Assembly: GCA_029559475.1 (NCBI GenBank)
Contig: JAKQBN010000082.1
Coordinates: forward strand, 1 to 14,724
Direction: 5' to 3'
DNA: 14,724 nucleotides
Origin: a bacterium
Lineage (GTDB): Bacteria > UBA4055
In this document: positions 855-6,143 of the stretch, piece after piece
How positions within the stretch are numbered: the first letter of the stretch is position 1
Layout: each line of letters begins with the position of its first letter
The notes under the pieces: model-generated
What the model was told of the DNA's origin: nothing
The model's database searches: none
The model's input: only the letters and a program-made list of their open reading frames with translations
Program-made: the position numbers and the translations under genes

Positions 855-859
855 AGGAG
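855..859 (+). promoter_or_regulatory. Ribosome binding site deciding the start at 868
   Basis: The sequence aggag ends 8 bases before the ATG at 868. No comparable site precedes the in-frame ATG at 826. Confidence 0.6.
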
Positions 860-867
860 TACGGATC

Positions 868-1287
868 ATGAAGAATGATAATAAAGAAAGGATACCGAGA
901 ATTAAGATAGTTACAATAGGGAATGAATTTGATTCTGTTGTAAAAATGTACTTAGACGAATCGGTTAAGAGGGATTCGGCAAATTTAGCTCAAGTCATAA
1001 TGGACGGCAGAATTGCCGATGTAGAGTATGAAGAGAGTGACAGGCTGACGGATATGCAGATCGTGTGCTGCGGCCAGGTAAGTGACAAGAAGAGGTTAAT
1101 GATCGATGAAATGCTGAGCAGAGCTTCAAAGAACGGTTCTCCTTCAATAGTACAGGGTATTTTGTCTGAGCTCGGAATGGGTATCGGATCTGCAGAGATA
1201 TTTATGAATGATGACTGTAAAATGCTGTTCAATACTGTCACCTCGTACGGGGATAATATTGAGTTCTCGCTTCTTGCATTGTATTAG
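868..1287 (+). CDS. Hypothetical protein, 139 residues
   Basis: I do not recognise this family. The ATG at 868 is preferred over the in-frame ATG at 826 because aggag (855-859) lies about 8 bases ahead of it; the residues before it look like leader DNA, and the repeated leader element overlaps them. The protein is soluble, with no signal peptide or membrane segment. A strand-like stretch RIKIVTIGNEFDSVVKMYLDE near the N-terminus and another, LTDMQIVCCGQVSDKKRLMIDEML, in the middle suggest an alpha/beta fold. The spacing of these two stretches loosely recalls the first half of an FtsZ/tubulin nucleotide-binding domain, but the glycine-rich loops that bind GTP are absent, so that is only a weak analogy. 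It appears complete, with a stop at 1285-1287. No obvious terminator follows in the 127-bp gap before the next gene. Confidence 0.6.
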   Translation: MKNDNKERIPRIKIVTIGNEFDSVVKMYLDESVKRDSANLAQVIMDGRIADVEYEESDRLTDMQIVCCGQVSDKKRLMIDEMLSRASKNGSPSIVQGILSELGMGIGSAEIFMNDDCKMLFNTVTSYGDNIEFSLLALY

Positions 1288-1414
1288 CCGGCATGTAAAT
1301 TATTTCAAATATTGAAAATATCAGTGAATGTTCTGAAAAAGTGATGCAAAATTATGGAAATTAATGTCAAAAATGCGTATATTGAAATAATTAAATTAAA
1401 CCTGAGCGGGTATT

Positions 1415-3031
1415 ATGAACATTCCGATAAATATTGAAACGCTTCTGGCGGGTAAAGTGGTTGAATCGGAGAGGATCGAGTATAAGAAGGGCTGGAATCC
1501 TGCTGAGATTATGCGTACTGTGGCTGCTTTCGCGAATGATTTTGAGAATCTGGGTAGCGGATATATTGTAGTGGGCGTTGAAGAAATCAACGGTATGGCT
1601 AAACGGCCGGTTTTCGGTTTTGACAGCGCGAAGTTCGATAAGGTGCAGAAAGAGATGATAGGTTTTTGTAATCTTATGCGCCCGAAGTATTTCCCGAAGA
1701 TGTCTTTAGAGGATGTTGACGGGAAGCAGGTTCTTCTTGTGTGGGTGACGGCAGGCAGCAACAGGCCTTATGAAGTGCCTAAGGATGTGACTGCAAATAA
1801 GAAAGATTATGAGTATTTTATTAGAAAGTATTCGAGCACGATCAGAGTGAATGACGAGCAAAAGCACGAGCTTTTCAGTCTTACGGCCAATATTCCTTTT
1901 GATGACCGTGTTAATCATAAAGCTCGGATTGACGATATTTCTCCTTATCTTTTGAGGAATCATTTAAGGCAGATAAACAGCAGGCTTTATCCGCAGAGCG
2001 AAACTTTACCGCACAAGGATTTATGTGTTCAGATGAATCTTGCAGAAGGCGCGGATGAACATCTATTGCCTAAGAATGTCGGGCTGTTATTGTTTAACGA
2101 TACACCGGAGAAGTATTTTCCTTATACTCATATCAGTATCGTGGAATTTCCGAACGGAGCTGGCGGAGAGGAATTTTATGAAAAAGTTTTTTCAGGACCA
2201 GTCCAGCAGCAGCTTGTGAATGCGCTGGCATATATAAAAGCACAGACGGTAAAATCAAAGACTGTCAAAATTAAAGGGCAGGCTGAGTCAAAAACATTTT
2301 TCAATTATCCTTTCGAGGCTGTAGAAGAAGCTTTGGCCAATGCTGTTTATCACAAGAATTATGAAATAAGGGAACCTATTGAGGTCAGGATAATGCCTGA
2401 TTCGATAGAAATAATCAGCTTCGGAGGTCCGGATCCTTCTGTAAGAATGTCAGACTTGAACAAAGGTTTGATAAGGGTAAGAAGGTACAGGAACAGGCGC
2501 ATTGGCGAATTTTTAAAAGAACTCGGACTGACTGAAGGTAAAGGCACAGGAATTCCCACGATCAAGAGAGCACTCGAAGTCAACGGATCCCCGCCTGCAA
2601 AATACGACACCGACGGCGATGAACGAAGGTACTTTGTTACCGAAATTCCCGTACATCCGGAATTTTTGAAAGAGGATAGTAACCAAGACAGTAACCAAGA
2701 TGAAGAAAAAAGTAACTATGTTATAGCTAAATTATCTTCGTTACTAAATCAAGAAATTAACTATGATATAGCTAAAAATATAAAATCGACTGAAAAAATT
2801 TTAACTAAGATAGTAATGGTATTAGAATTTTGTTTTGCGCCTAGAACAAGAGACGAAATATTTGATGAGATTGAAATGTCAAACCAGACCAGAAATTACA
2901 ATGACATAGTTAAACCGGCGGTAGATGCCGGACTTGTGTCTATGACTATTCCTAAAAAACCAAAGAGTAAATATCAAAAATATTTAACTACCGAAAAAGG
3001 AAAAAGGCTGATTGAAAGTAAGAATGATTAG
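1415..3031 (+). CDS. AlbA_2/Schlafen-type DNA-binding protein with RecG-like ATPase (HATPase_c_4) domain
   Basis: This 538-residue protein has the usual order of the 'putative transcriptional regulator / RecG-like' family. An AlbA_2 (Schlafen) domain spans about 16-140, with ESERIEYKKGWNP (18-29) and FANDFENLGSGYIVVGVEE (39-57). A GHKL ATPase-like domain spans about 295-410, with EALANAVYHKNYE (305-317), the strand EIISFGGPDP, and a glycine loop GLTEGKGTGIPTIKRAL. A winged-helix-like C-terminal domain lies at about 460-538. The linker at 420-455 is repetitive: SNQDSNQD, then NYVIAK and NYDIAK 15 residues apart. Family members are thought to bind DNA or RNA and often sit in mobile or defence regions; no specific target can be read here. 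The ribosome binding site is weak (gagcggg). The DarG-like gene follows after 39 bp, probably in the same transcript. Confidence 0.85.
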   Translation: MNIPINIETLLAGKVVESERIEYKKGWNPAEIMRTVAAFANDFENLGSGYIVVGVEEINGMAKRPVFGFDSAKFDKVQKEMIGFCNLMRPKYFPKMSLEDVDGKQVLLVWVTAGSNRPYEVPKDVTANKKDYEYFIRKYSSTIRVNDEQKHELFSLTANIPFDDRVNHKARIDDISPYLLRNHLRQINSRLYPQSETLPHKDLCVQMNLAEGADEHLLPKNVGLLLFNDTPEKYFPYTHISIVEFPNGAGGEEFYEKVFSGPVQQQLVNALAYIKAQTVKSKTVKIKGQAESKTFFNYPFEAVEEALANAVYHKNYEIREPIEVRIMPDSIEIISFGGPDPSVRMSDLNKGLIRVRRYRNRRIGEFLKELGLTEGKGTGIPTIKRALEVNGSPPAKYDTDGDERRYFVTEIPVHPEFLKEDSNQDSNQDEEKSNYVIAKLSSLLNQEINYDIAKNIKSTEKILTKIVMVLEFCFAPRTRDEIFDEIEMSNQTRNYNDIVKPAVDAGLVSMTIPKKPKSKYQKYLTTEKGKRLIESKND

Positions 3032-3070
3032 CGGTTTGAAAATTGCTATGTATTTATTAGGAGACTTATA

Positions 3071-4105
3071 ATGATTAAACACATAACAGGTAATATATTC
3101 GAAAGCGAGGCTGAAGCTTTAGTTAATACGGTCAATACAGATGGAGTTATGGGTAAAGGTATTGCTTTACAGTTCAAAAAACTGTTCCCGGAAAATTTTA
3201 AAGCTTATGCTGAGGCCTGCAAAAATAGTGCTGTCGTTATAGGGCGGATGTTTGTCACAAACGAATCTAATCTTTCTACCGGTGATAAGATTATAATAAA
3301 TTTCCCCACCAAAAAAAGCTGGAAAAAGACTTCCGAATACAGCTTTATTGAGGAAGGTTTAGAAGATTTGGTAAATATAATTAAAAAAAGAAATATCAAA
3401 AGTATAGCCCTACCGCCTCTCGGATCTGGGAACGGAGGCTTGGAATGGGAGCGAGTAAAAAAGATAATTGACCTGAAGTTAAATCAACTTGATATAGACA
3501 TATTTGTTTTTGAGCCTACCGCGCAAATAAAAGAAGAGATGAAAAAAGAAAGGGTAAAGTTAACTGACGCCAGAGCCCTTTTATTATATGTGCTATACGA
3601 TCTTGTAAAGAACGGCGAATATGTTTCTGAGTTTTCAAGCGAGAAAGTCTGTTATTTCCTTCAAAGATTCGGAGCAGAAAAGTATTTTAAGCTTGAATTC
3701 AAACCTAAATTCTATGGACCGTATTCAGGTAAGGTCAGATTTGTTCTCAATGCTCTGAACGGCAGTTATATTATGGGATACAGCGATATGAATAAAAAAC
3801 CTTTTGATCCTCTTACGCTCATTTCAGACGGTTATGATACTGTGAAAAATCAAATTCAAAGTAATAACGAGCTACATGATATAGCCGATAAAACGATCAG
3901 GTTCCTTGAAGGATTTTATTCTGATTTTGCGTTGGAATTATTATCATCCATAGATTATTTAGCTGTAAAAGATAAAACTACGGACATTAAGACTATACAA
4001 AAAGGAATTGAGAGCTGGAGCAGTAGAAAAAGCACCAAATTCTCAAACCAGAAATATCTTGAAATATCTTTGAAACATATTAGAGATTGCGGGTTCGTTT
4101 ACTGA
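3071..4105 (+). CDS. darG: DarG-like macrodomain antitoxin (DNA ADP-ribosyl glycohydrolase)
   Basis: This protein has 344 residues, full length for DarG. The N-terminal macrodomain (about 1-150) shows GNIF (7-10), ALVNTVNTDGVMGKGIALQFK (16-36), NFPTKKSWK (77-85) and the loop LPPLGSGNGGLEWERV (114-129). The lysine in NFPTK (K81) matches the catalytic lysine position of characterised DarG. The C-terminal domain (about 160-344), with LLLYVLYDL, KVCYFLQRFG, FYGPYSGKVRFVLNALNG and GYSDM, is the DarG-specific half that neutralises the toxin. In the known pair, DarT adds ADP-ribose to thymidine in single-stranded DNA, and DarG removes it and binds DarT. darT normally lies immediately upstream; here that place is taken by the AlbA_2 gene, and no DarT-like protein is encoded in the window. 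The ribosome binding site taggag precedes the ATG by 7 bases. It could be an orphan antitoxin or may serve another ADP-ribosylating partner. Confidence 0.85.
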   Translation: MIKHITGNIFESEAEALVNTVNTDGVMGKGIALQFKKLFPENFKAYAEACKNSAVVIGRMFVTNESNLSTGDKIIINFPTKKSWKKTSEYSFIEEGLEDLVNIIKKRNIKSIALPPLGSGNGGLEWERVKKIIDLKLNQLDIDIFVFEPTAQIKEEMKKERVKLTDARALLLYVLYDLVKNGEYVSEFSSEKVCYFLQRFGAEKYFKLEFKPKFYGPYSGKVRFVLNALNGSYIMGYSDMNKKPFDPLTLISDGYDTVKNQIQSNNELHDIADKTIRFLEGFYSDFALELLSSIDYLAVKDKTTDIKTIQKGIESWSSRKSTKFSNQKYLEISLKHIRDCGFVY

Positions 4106-4145: not shown

Positions 4146-4170
4146 AAGCGGTCGCAATTTGCGACCGCTT
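4146..4170 (+). terminator. Perfect hairpin after the darG-like gene
   Basis: The arms aagcggtcgcaa (4146-4157) and ttgcgaccgctt (4159-4170) pair perfectly around a single t. The 3' tail gcatttta is a weak U tract, and the opposite strand has tttt after the hairpin, so it may act in both directions. It lies 40 bp past the stop of the DarG-like gene. The centre CAATTTG is shared with the palindrome at 5514-5544. Confidence 0.6.
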
Positions 4171-4173
4171 GCA

Positions 4174-4314
4174 TTTTATAGCTAAAAGGGCTGAAACCGT
4201 CTTTTTGGGCGGTCAGAACCGTTATACTCTTTTAGCGCAGCTATAAAATAAGCACAAAAAATCGCTTGTTTTTGGATGTTTTCGCAGGTAAATTGATTTT
4301 ACCGGAAATAAATT
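4174..4314 (+). repeat. Leader element, copy 2, with long hairpin
   Basis: The outer arms ttttatagct (4174-4183) and agctataaaa (4239-4248) pair over 10 bp. They are followed by aaaag (4184-4188) with ctttt (4229-4233), leaving a 5-base bulge. Inside, ccgtc (4197-4201) can pair with ggcgg (4208-4212), and ctga (4191-4194) with tcag (4213-4216). The 19 bp tttatagctaaaagggctg are identical to copy 1, and the distal block taaattgattttaccgg (4289-4305) also has a counterpart there. The element fills most of the gap between the DarG-like gene and the next gene. It could be a structured leader RNA or a small miniature mobile element. Confidence 0.6.
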
Positions 4315-4395
4315 ACCGGAAGAAAGAGATATTCAGGCAACTGCAAAATGCTTTTGGGAATTGAGAAGGTCAGGGATATTATAGAGGATGAAAAT

Positions 4396-5243: not shown

Positions 5244-5273
5244 GAGTGTCATTAGATGACATTCTTCTTTTTG
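5244..5273 (+). terminator. Probable terminator of the 34-residue-repeat gene
   Basis: The stem gagtgtcat (5244-5252) pairs with atgacattc (5256-5264), 9 bp with one G-U pair and a 3-base loop tag, followed by ttctttttg. It begins about 35 bp past the stop at 5208. An in-frame ATG at 5256 lies inside this hairpin, which is evidence against that start for the next gene. Confidence 0.55.
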
Positions 5274-5309
5274 TATATTACTTTAACAGTTATGGCGGAG
5301 AAGTGTAAA

Positions 5310-6143
5310 ATGGTTAAGAATGAAGTTGAAAAGTTTGACGAAAGTATTATCAGAGACAGGATTTATTTGATCCGCGGCTATCAGGTGATGCTGGATTCTG
5401 ATCTGGCTGAATTGTATGGGGTGGAGGTTAAATATATCAACAGAGCAGTAAAAAGGAATACGGATAGATTTCCGGCAAAATTTTGTTTTATGTTAAATAG
5501 TCGTGAGATATCTAACTTGAAGTGCCAATTTGGCACTTCAAGTTGGGGCGGTAAAAGGAAACAACCTACAGTTTTCACTGAGCTCAGTATTAAAATTATG
5601 TGTGCTTTTATTGAGATGCGTAAATTCATCCAAACGAACGGGCATATATTCCAAAGAGTAGATAATCTGGAAATAAAGCTGATCGAGACTGATAAAAAGG
5701 TTGAAAAAATTCTCGATGCAATGGATAGCGGTGATTTGAAGCCTAAGCAGGGGATCTTCTTTGACGGTCAAGTATTTGATGCATATACATTTGTATCAGA
5801 TCTGTTCAGGAGCGCAAAGAAGTGTATAGTTATCATAGATAATTATATTGATGATTCAGTGCTTGTTCACCTTACTGCTGTTGCCAAAGGTGTAAAGGTT
5901 AAGATACTTACTAAATCTATTTCAGATAAGCTTGCTTTGGATATTCATAAGTTCAGTGAGCAGTATTTTCATGTCGAGGCTAAGGTGTTCACTCTCGCGC
6001 ATGACAGATTCATTATTATTGACGATAAAGATGTGTATCACTTTGGAGCGTCTCTGAAAGATCTCGGAAAAAAGTGGTTTGCGTTCTCGAAGATCGAGAA
6101 GTCAGATTTGGAATTATTAAGCAAATTGGAGAAACTAAAATGA
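5310..6143 (+). CDS. ORF6N DNA-binding protein with PLD-like C-terminal domain, internal deletion
   Basis: The ATG at 5310 is chosen because ggcggag (5294-5300) lies 9 bases ahead and because family members start near VEKFDESIIRDRIYLIRG; in-frame ATGs at 5256 and 5292 also exist. The product has 277 residues. The ORF6N domain (about 10-100) shows IYLIRGYQVMLDSDLAELYGV and NRAVKRNTDRFPAKFCFML, then SNLKCQFGTSSWGGKRK. In relatives FTE is followed by about 18 conserved residues (QGVAMLS.VLRS-like) before the SIKIM...F.EMRKF helix. Here FTE (88-91) joins directly to LSIKIM, so an in-frame deletion seems to have removed part of the domain. A short coiled coil (115-140) leads to a C-terminal domain (about 148-265) with KCIVIIDNYID, HDRFIIIDD (231-239) and HFGASLKDLGKKWFAFS, which resembles a phospholipase-D-like fold. 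The product may therefore bind DNA poorly. Confidence 0.75.
   Translation: MVKNEVEKFDESIIRDRIYLIRGYQVMLDSDLAELYGVEVKYINRAVKRNTDRFPAKFCFMLNSREISNLKCQFGTSSWGGKRKQPTVFTELSIKIMCAFIEMRKFIQTNGHIFQRVDNLEIKLIETDKKVEKILDAMDSGDLKPKQGIFFDGQVFDAYTFVSDLFRSAKKCIVIIDNYIDDSVLVHLTAVAKGVKVKILTKSISDKLALDIHKFSEQYFHVEAKVFTLAHDRFIIIDDKDVYHFGASLKDLGKKWFAFSKIEKSDLELLSKLEKLK
5514..5544. repeat. 31-bp perfect palindrome inside the ORF6N gene
   Basis: The arms aacttgaagtgccaa (5514-5528) and ttggcacttcaagtt (5530-5544) pair perfectly around a single t. It encodes residues 69-79 (NLKCQFGTSSW), a normal family motif. Its codon position is almost the same as that of the palindrome in the KilA-N gene (codons 65-76). Confidence 0.9.

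Follow-up and report, generated by a model that had tools for sequence, protein, structure and literature searches.

A probable orphan DarG antitoxin, left by a broken DarTG2 pair, directly downstream of an AlbA_2-type gene in a Delongbacteria-like MAG

Two types of DarT-based toxin-antitoxin pairs act on different bases: DarT1 modifies guanosine, which is reversed by NADAR, and DarG reverses the thymidine adduct formed by DarT2 (PMC11543638). Antitoxins lacking their toxin (orphans) are common and have been interpreted both as remnants and as anti-addiction functions (PMC7192599, PMC7354431). The locus described here is located in a window representing one whole contig (C82; 14,724 bases) of a draft genome (2.28 Mb, 83 contigs, 92 % complete), the nearest matching records of which are MAGs of Candidatus Delongbacteria and UBP11. 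It resembles DarTG2 (DarT2 and DarG, e.g., of Thermus aquaticus) in encoding a DarG of full length, in which the macrodomain, the catalytic-lysine position and the DarT-binding C-terminal half are all present, and its relatives with 98 % (L005, contig G003 C184) and 83 % (L006, contig G007 C61) DarG identity are ordinary DarTG2 operons; however, the window copy is devoid of a toxin gene. Orphan antitoxins of degraded pairs surveyed in Klebsiella (PMC7192599) are alike in that the antitoxin is kept, the toxin side is changed and the other side is common with the intact pair, but they comprise 50–150 aa, in contrast to the larger, enzyme-type DarG. The phage antitoxin mimic ICP1 Gp145 (PMC11481870) is likewise a stand-alone DarT neutraliser (a property assigned to the present DarG by homology), yet it is a 77-aa phage protein, whereas the window, a bacterial contig, encodes a complete DarG.

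The darG gene (3071–4105, + strand) encodes a 344-aa antitoxin consisting of a macrodomain (about residues 1–150) and a DarT-binding C-terminal half, and no DarT gene adjoins it. Its assignment as full-length DarG in the first-pass annotation is borne out by (i) a score of 382.5 bits against the NCBIfam equivalog NF048014 (antitoxin_DarG; profile positions 1–336 of 338), exceeding the curated cut-off of 250 bits, (ii) a match of residues 1–338 to the PADLOC DarG model (E 2e-116), and (iii) PDB matches to DarG macrodomains (5m31, E 1e-45) and, for residues 185–328, to 7yk3_B, the C-terminal half of DarG solved with DarT (E 3e-14). In the alignment with the Thermus DarG chain, the catalytic-lysine position K80, the role of which in the macrodomain was described previously (PMC11543638), corresponds to K81 (NFPTKK motif), and is invariant in 18 aligned DarGs. 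Judging from its sequence, DarG is apparently intact. Since the macrodomain with the catalytic-lysine position as well as the C-terminal DarT-binding half are kept, homology predicts that the protein has remained able to remove ADP-ribose from DNA thymidine and to inhibit a DarT2 enzyme.

Two close relatives, L005 and L006, form the basis for comparing the gene neighbourhood. In both of them darT2 adjoins darG, with an intact 217-aa DarT (PF14487, E 4e-41; structures 7omv and 7yk3) encoded 12 bp upstream, which is not the case in the window. DNA homology of the window with both relatives restarts at 3054 (L005 1449), i.e., inside the last codons of the intact darT. Therefore, the window has kept the very end of darT together with the darG ribosome-binding site (3054–3070, + strand; TATTAGGAGACTTATA before ATG), and the rest was lost. 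Between this remnant and the upstream AlbA_2 gene lies a junction (3032–3053) of sequence common to neither L005 nor L006. The gene order in L005 is darT, darG, exonuclease gene, 252-aa gene and AlbA_2 gene, versus shortened 252-aa gene, AlbA_2 gene, darG and the 3′-terminal 65 bp of the exonuclease gene in the window. The same AlbA_2 gene is thus already present in the same gene neighbourhood of L005, but across the intact darTG pair, on its other side and beyond two genes.

Both of these intervening genes carry deletions in the window. The copy of the 252-aa gene (unknown family; 859–1287, + strand) lacks about 360 bp as compared to L005, where this gene sits between those for the exonuclease and the AlbA_2 protein (blastn blocks: window 855–1145 to L005 3276–3566, window 1168 onward to L005 3928 onward). 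Its product (L005 3289–4047) matched nothing in Pfam or NCBIfam at the thresholds applied, and the reading frame is still open in the shortened window copy. About 65 bp remain of the 3′ end of the exonuclease gene (4324–4388, + strand), the body of which is missing; they are 94 % identical to L005 3215–3279, where an intact gene for a 182-aa exonuclease of the RNase_T family ends.

The gene directly upstream of darG (1415–3031, + strand) encodes a 538-aa AlbA_2/HATPase_c_4/winged-helix protein (Pfam matches SLFN_AlbA_2, HATPase_c_4 and Fic-like_C), and is homologous to L005 4178–5752 apart from the C-terminal portion beyond about 2665 (92 % in blastn for window 1168–2665). As already recognized from the open reading frames, it is separated from darG by only 39 bp on the same strand. 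This close spacing and shared orientation favoured the proposal that the AlbA_2/ATPase protein acts together with an ADP-ribose hydrolase in a distinct two-gene system. The upstream genes of DarG homologues do not agree with it. DarT and AlbA_2 profiles were applied to 80 darG loci, taken from genomes representing one species each; as these are the top-scoring 80 among 136 confirmed matches, rates are rough. An intact DarT is encoded upstream of darG in 71 (median gap 14 bp), a darT fragment directly upstream in five (3′ part in L012, L055 and L076; split in L060 and L067) and no DarT upstream in four (L010, L024, L072 and L082). The AlbA_2 profile matched upstream of darG in none of these best 80 loci; its two matches (L005 and, weakly, L036) are downstream and not adjacent. 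The same holds for near-full-length viral darG loci, none of 45 having AlbA_2 upstream, and relatives of the AlbA_2 protein in L087–L092 show no adjoining DarG. A recurrent AlbA_2–DarG pair, which the first-pass annotation had envisaged with absence from other genomes as the refuting outcome, is therefore dismissed for the loci covered. Moreover, silent differences to L005 affect 29 of 343 codons in the DarG block versus 78 of 416 in the AlbA_2 block (Fisher p = 4e-5), and this difference in synonymous divergence indicates that the two blocks were joined by recombination. Together with the position of the AlbA_2 gene of L005 on the far side of an intact darTG, these results render the two-gene system highly improbable: the AlbA_2 gene is a chance neighbour of darG, not a functional partner. 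A tidy-looking two-gene operon can thus be a product of recombination. In the literature library searched, work on bacterial AlbA_2 proteins had no bearing on the present locus.

In three unrelated loci (L012, L055 and L076), darT is reduced to its 3′ part in front of darG, a pattern resembling that of the window. Viral contigs with near-full-length DarG have a DarT match nearby in 44 of 45 cases, and the one DarG without such a match starts 58 bp from the locus end; a large class of full-length phage DarGs serving as orphan anti-DarT proteins is accordingly not supported. Most of those shorter, macrodomain-only viral matches that were checked have no nearby DarT.

In agreement with the initial reading of the window as free of DarT-like sequence, comparison with a panel of DarT proteins revealed no credible DarT there (best E 0.03, short stretches). 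Searching the rest of the assembly with the 217-aa DarT encoded in L005 gave zero matches even at E 10, i.e., no DarT2-like gene. The search of the genome for any DarT, proposed alongside the first-pass annotation, did retrieve one gene (Pfam model PF14487; contig C37, E 7e-22), but this gene overlaps one for a NADAR-DarT1 antitoxin (E 3e-82) and follows a gene for an UvrD-like helicase; it is therefore regarded as part of a DarT1–NADAR pair with its own antitoxin, representing a separate system. Apart from this pair, a concealed DarT, be it in the window or elsewhere in the assembly, is ruled out. Since a DarT does exist in the genome, DarG might be thought to serve it in trans; the overlapping antitoxin gene as well as the different target bases (guanosine for DarT1/NADAR, the thymidine adduct of DarT2 for DarG; PMC11543638) make this a most improbable role. 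The DarT1–NADAR (DarTG1) system, although occurring in the same genome, differs from the present locus in antitoxin family and target base, and is unlinked to it. The genes for the UvrD-like helicase, DarT1 and the NADAR-DarT1 antitoxin form a tight row on one strand (L001 705–3550, contig C37 of G000), and the helicase may belong to the DarT1–NADAR unit.

With its toxin gone, its antitoxin intact and a homologous intact pair in relatives, the locus is best explained by darG being the antitoxin half of a DarTG2 pair, a recombination event probably having removed darT and brought an unrelated AlbA_2 gene into the position immediately before darG; we assign a probability of about 85 % to this reading. 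The first-pass suggestion of an orphan antitoxin is hence retained, given an intact DarG, the loss of its DarT and an assembly without DarT2-like gene. Alternatively, two metagenome strain variants may have been joined during assembly at 3031–3054, the real genome harbouring an intact darTG. The origin from a MAG, the location of the junction in 22 bp without homologues and the several deletions relative to relatives on the same contig are compatible with such an artefact, and darT may simply be missing from a draft MAG of 92 % completeness in 83 contigs. However, darG and the AlbA_2 gene are each single-copy in the assembly and darT2-like sequence was left on no contig, so that an artefact is considered unlikely.

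According to the recombination scenario, DarG, no DarT2 having been found in the cell, would be without a resident target. Given the spacing of just 39 bp and an intrinsic-terminator-like hairpin (4146–4170, + strand; 11-bp stem, T-rich tail) that follows darG, the latter may be transcribed by read-through from the AlbA_2 gene. Sequence identities point to exchange between genera: DNA identity to G003 amounts to 92–94 % for the AlbA_2 gene and darG, but to 65 % for core genes located on the contig. In addition, neither darG nor the AlbA_2 gene is present in two genomes belonging to the same genus. The C-terminal part of the AlbA_2 gene from 2665 represents a different allele, for which (2665–3054) only short matching stretches were found among 13 genomes of the phylum. 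From these comparisons, the AlbA_2–darG region is taken to be horizontally exchanged and mosaic, and deletions relative to relatives affect the exonuclease, 252-aa and KilA-N genes in the same region. Our verdict is thus an orphan DarG, encoded in a part of a Delongbacteria-like MAG that is shared horizontally and prone to deletions. On present evidence, the locus constitutes an ordinary remnant of a toxin-antitoxin pair, displaying toxin loss from a DarTG2 pair with survival of the antitoxin.

Whether the orphan is kept by selection was assessed from codon changes. The dN/dS of DarG versus L005 is 0.046, and the window branch, after diverging from L005, accumulated 10 silent codon changes and 4 that alter the amino acid, compared to about 75 % amino-acid changes expected under neutrality (p = 3e-4). 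These changes suggest constraint on DarG, part of which, as part of the branch itself, may predate the loss of darT. Entry of foreign DarT2 toxins into the population may select for the orphan, which would then be actively maintained as an immunity factor (anti-addiction or anti-DarTG). Such a reading concerns function and is compatible with the recombination origin proposed for the anatomy of the locus. It would agree with the intact reading frame and invariant residues, the purifying pattern on the window branch, the retention of full-length DarG despite missing or truncated darT in seven loci (L010, L012, L024, L055, L072, L076 and L082), the circulation of DarTG2 with highly similar DarG in related genera, and the anti-addiction role that has been suggested for orphan antitoxins (PMC7354431, PMC7192599). 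On the other hand, the constraint may be older than the darT loss, the adjoining genes are decaying, and simple remnants, too, are common among orphan antitoxins (PMC7192599). Active maintenance is accordingly regarded as a tentative proposal, somewhat less than an even bet. Due to the possibly older constraint and the deletions in the exonuclease, 252-aa and KilA-N genes, a remnant with a still functional protein is rated highest, retained immunity being a live alternative. In either case, DarG could at most provide passive immunity to DarT2 arriving on plasmids, phages or islands. One may further speculate, with considerable doubt, that full-length orphan DarGs constitute a recurrent, selected class, by which DarT2-less cells keep standing immunity against the DarT2 of mobile elements or neighbours. 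If selection does keep orphan DarGs, they would act as naturally occurring genes for resistance to DarTG-based phage defence or addiction.

Downstream of the terminator-like hairpin, an intergenic palindromic element (4171–4323, + strand) precedes the exonuclease remnant; in L005 (2568–2720) and L006 (6804–6941) it stands before the exonuclease gene, and it also occurs at L201 1392–1523. A partial second copy is present in the window at 764–817. The element comprises about 140 bp, and its outer stem is altered on both sides (TATAGCT/AGCTATA in the window versus TGTAGCT/AGCTACA in L005). Rfam gave no match anywhere in the window, including this element. The broken KilA-N gene and the ORF6N gene reported for the surroundings were both recovered. 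The former (1–712, at the left edge of the window) has about 118 bp deleted as compared to the intact 329-aa gene of L006 (8514–9503), and the latter (5256–6143) encodes a protein with a PLD-like C-terminal half and a strong match to the PADLOC candidate defence model PDC-S05 (E 2e-99).
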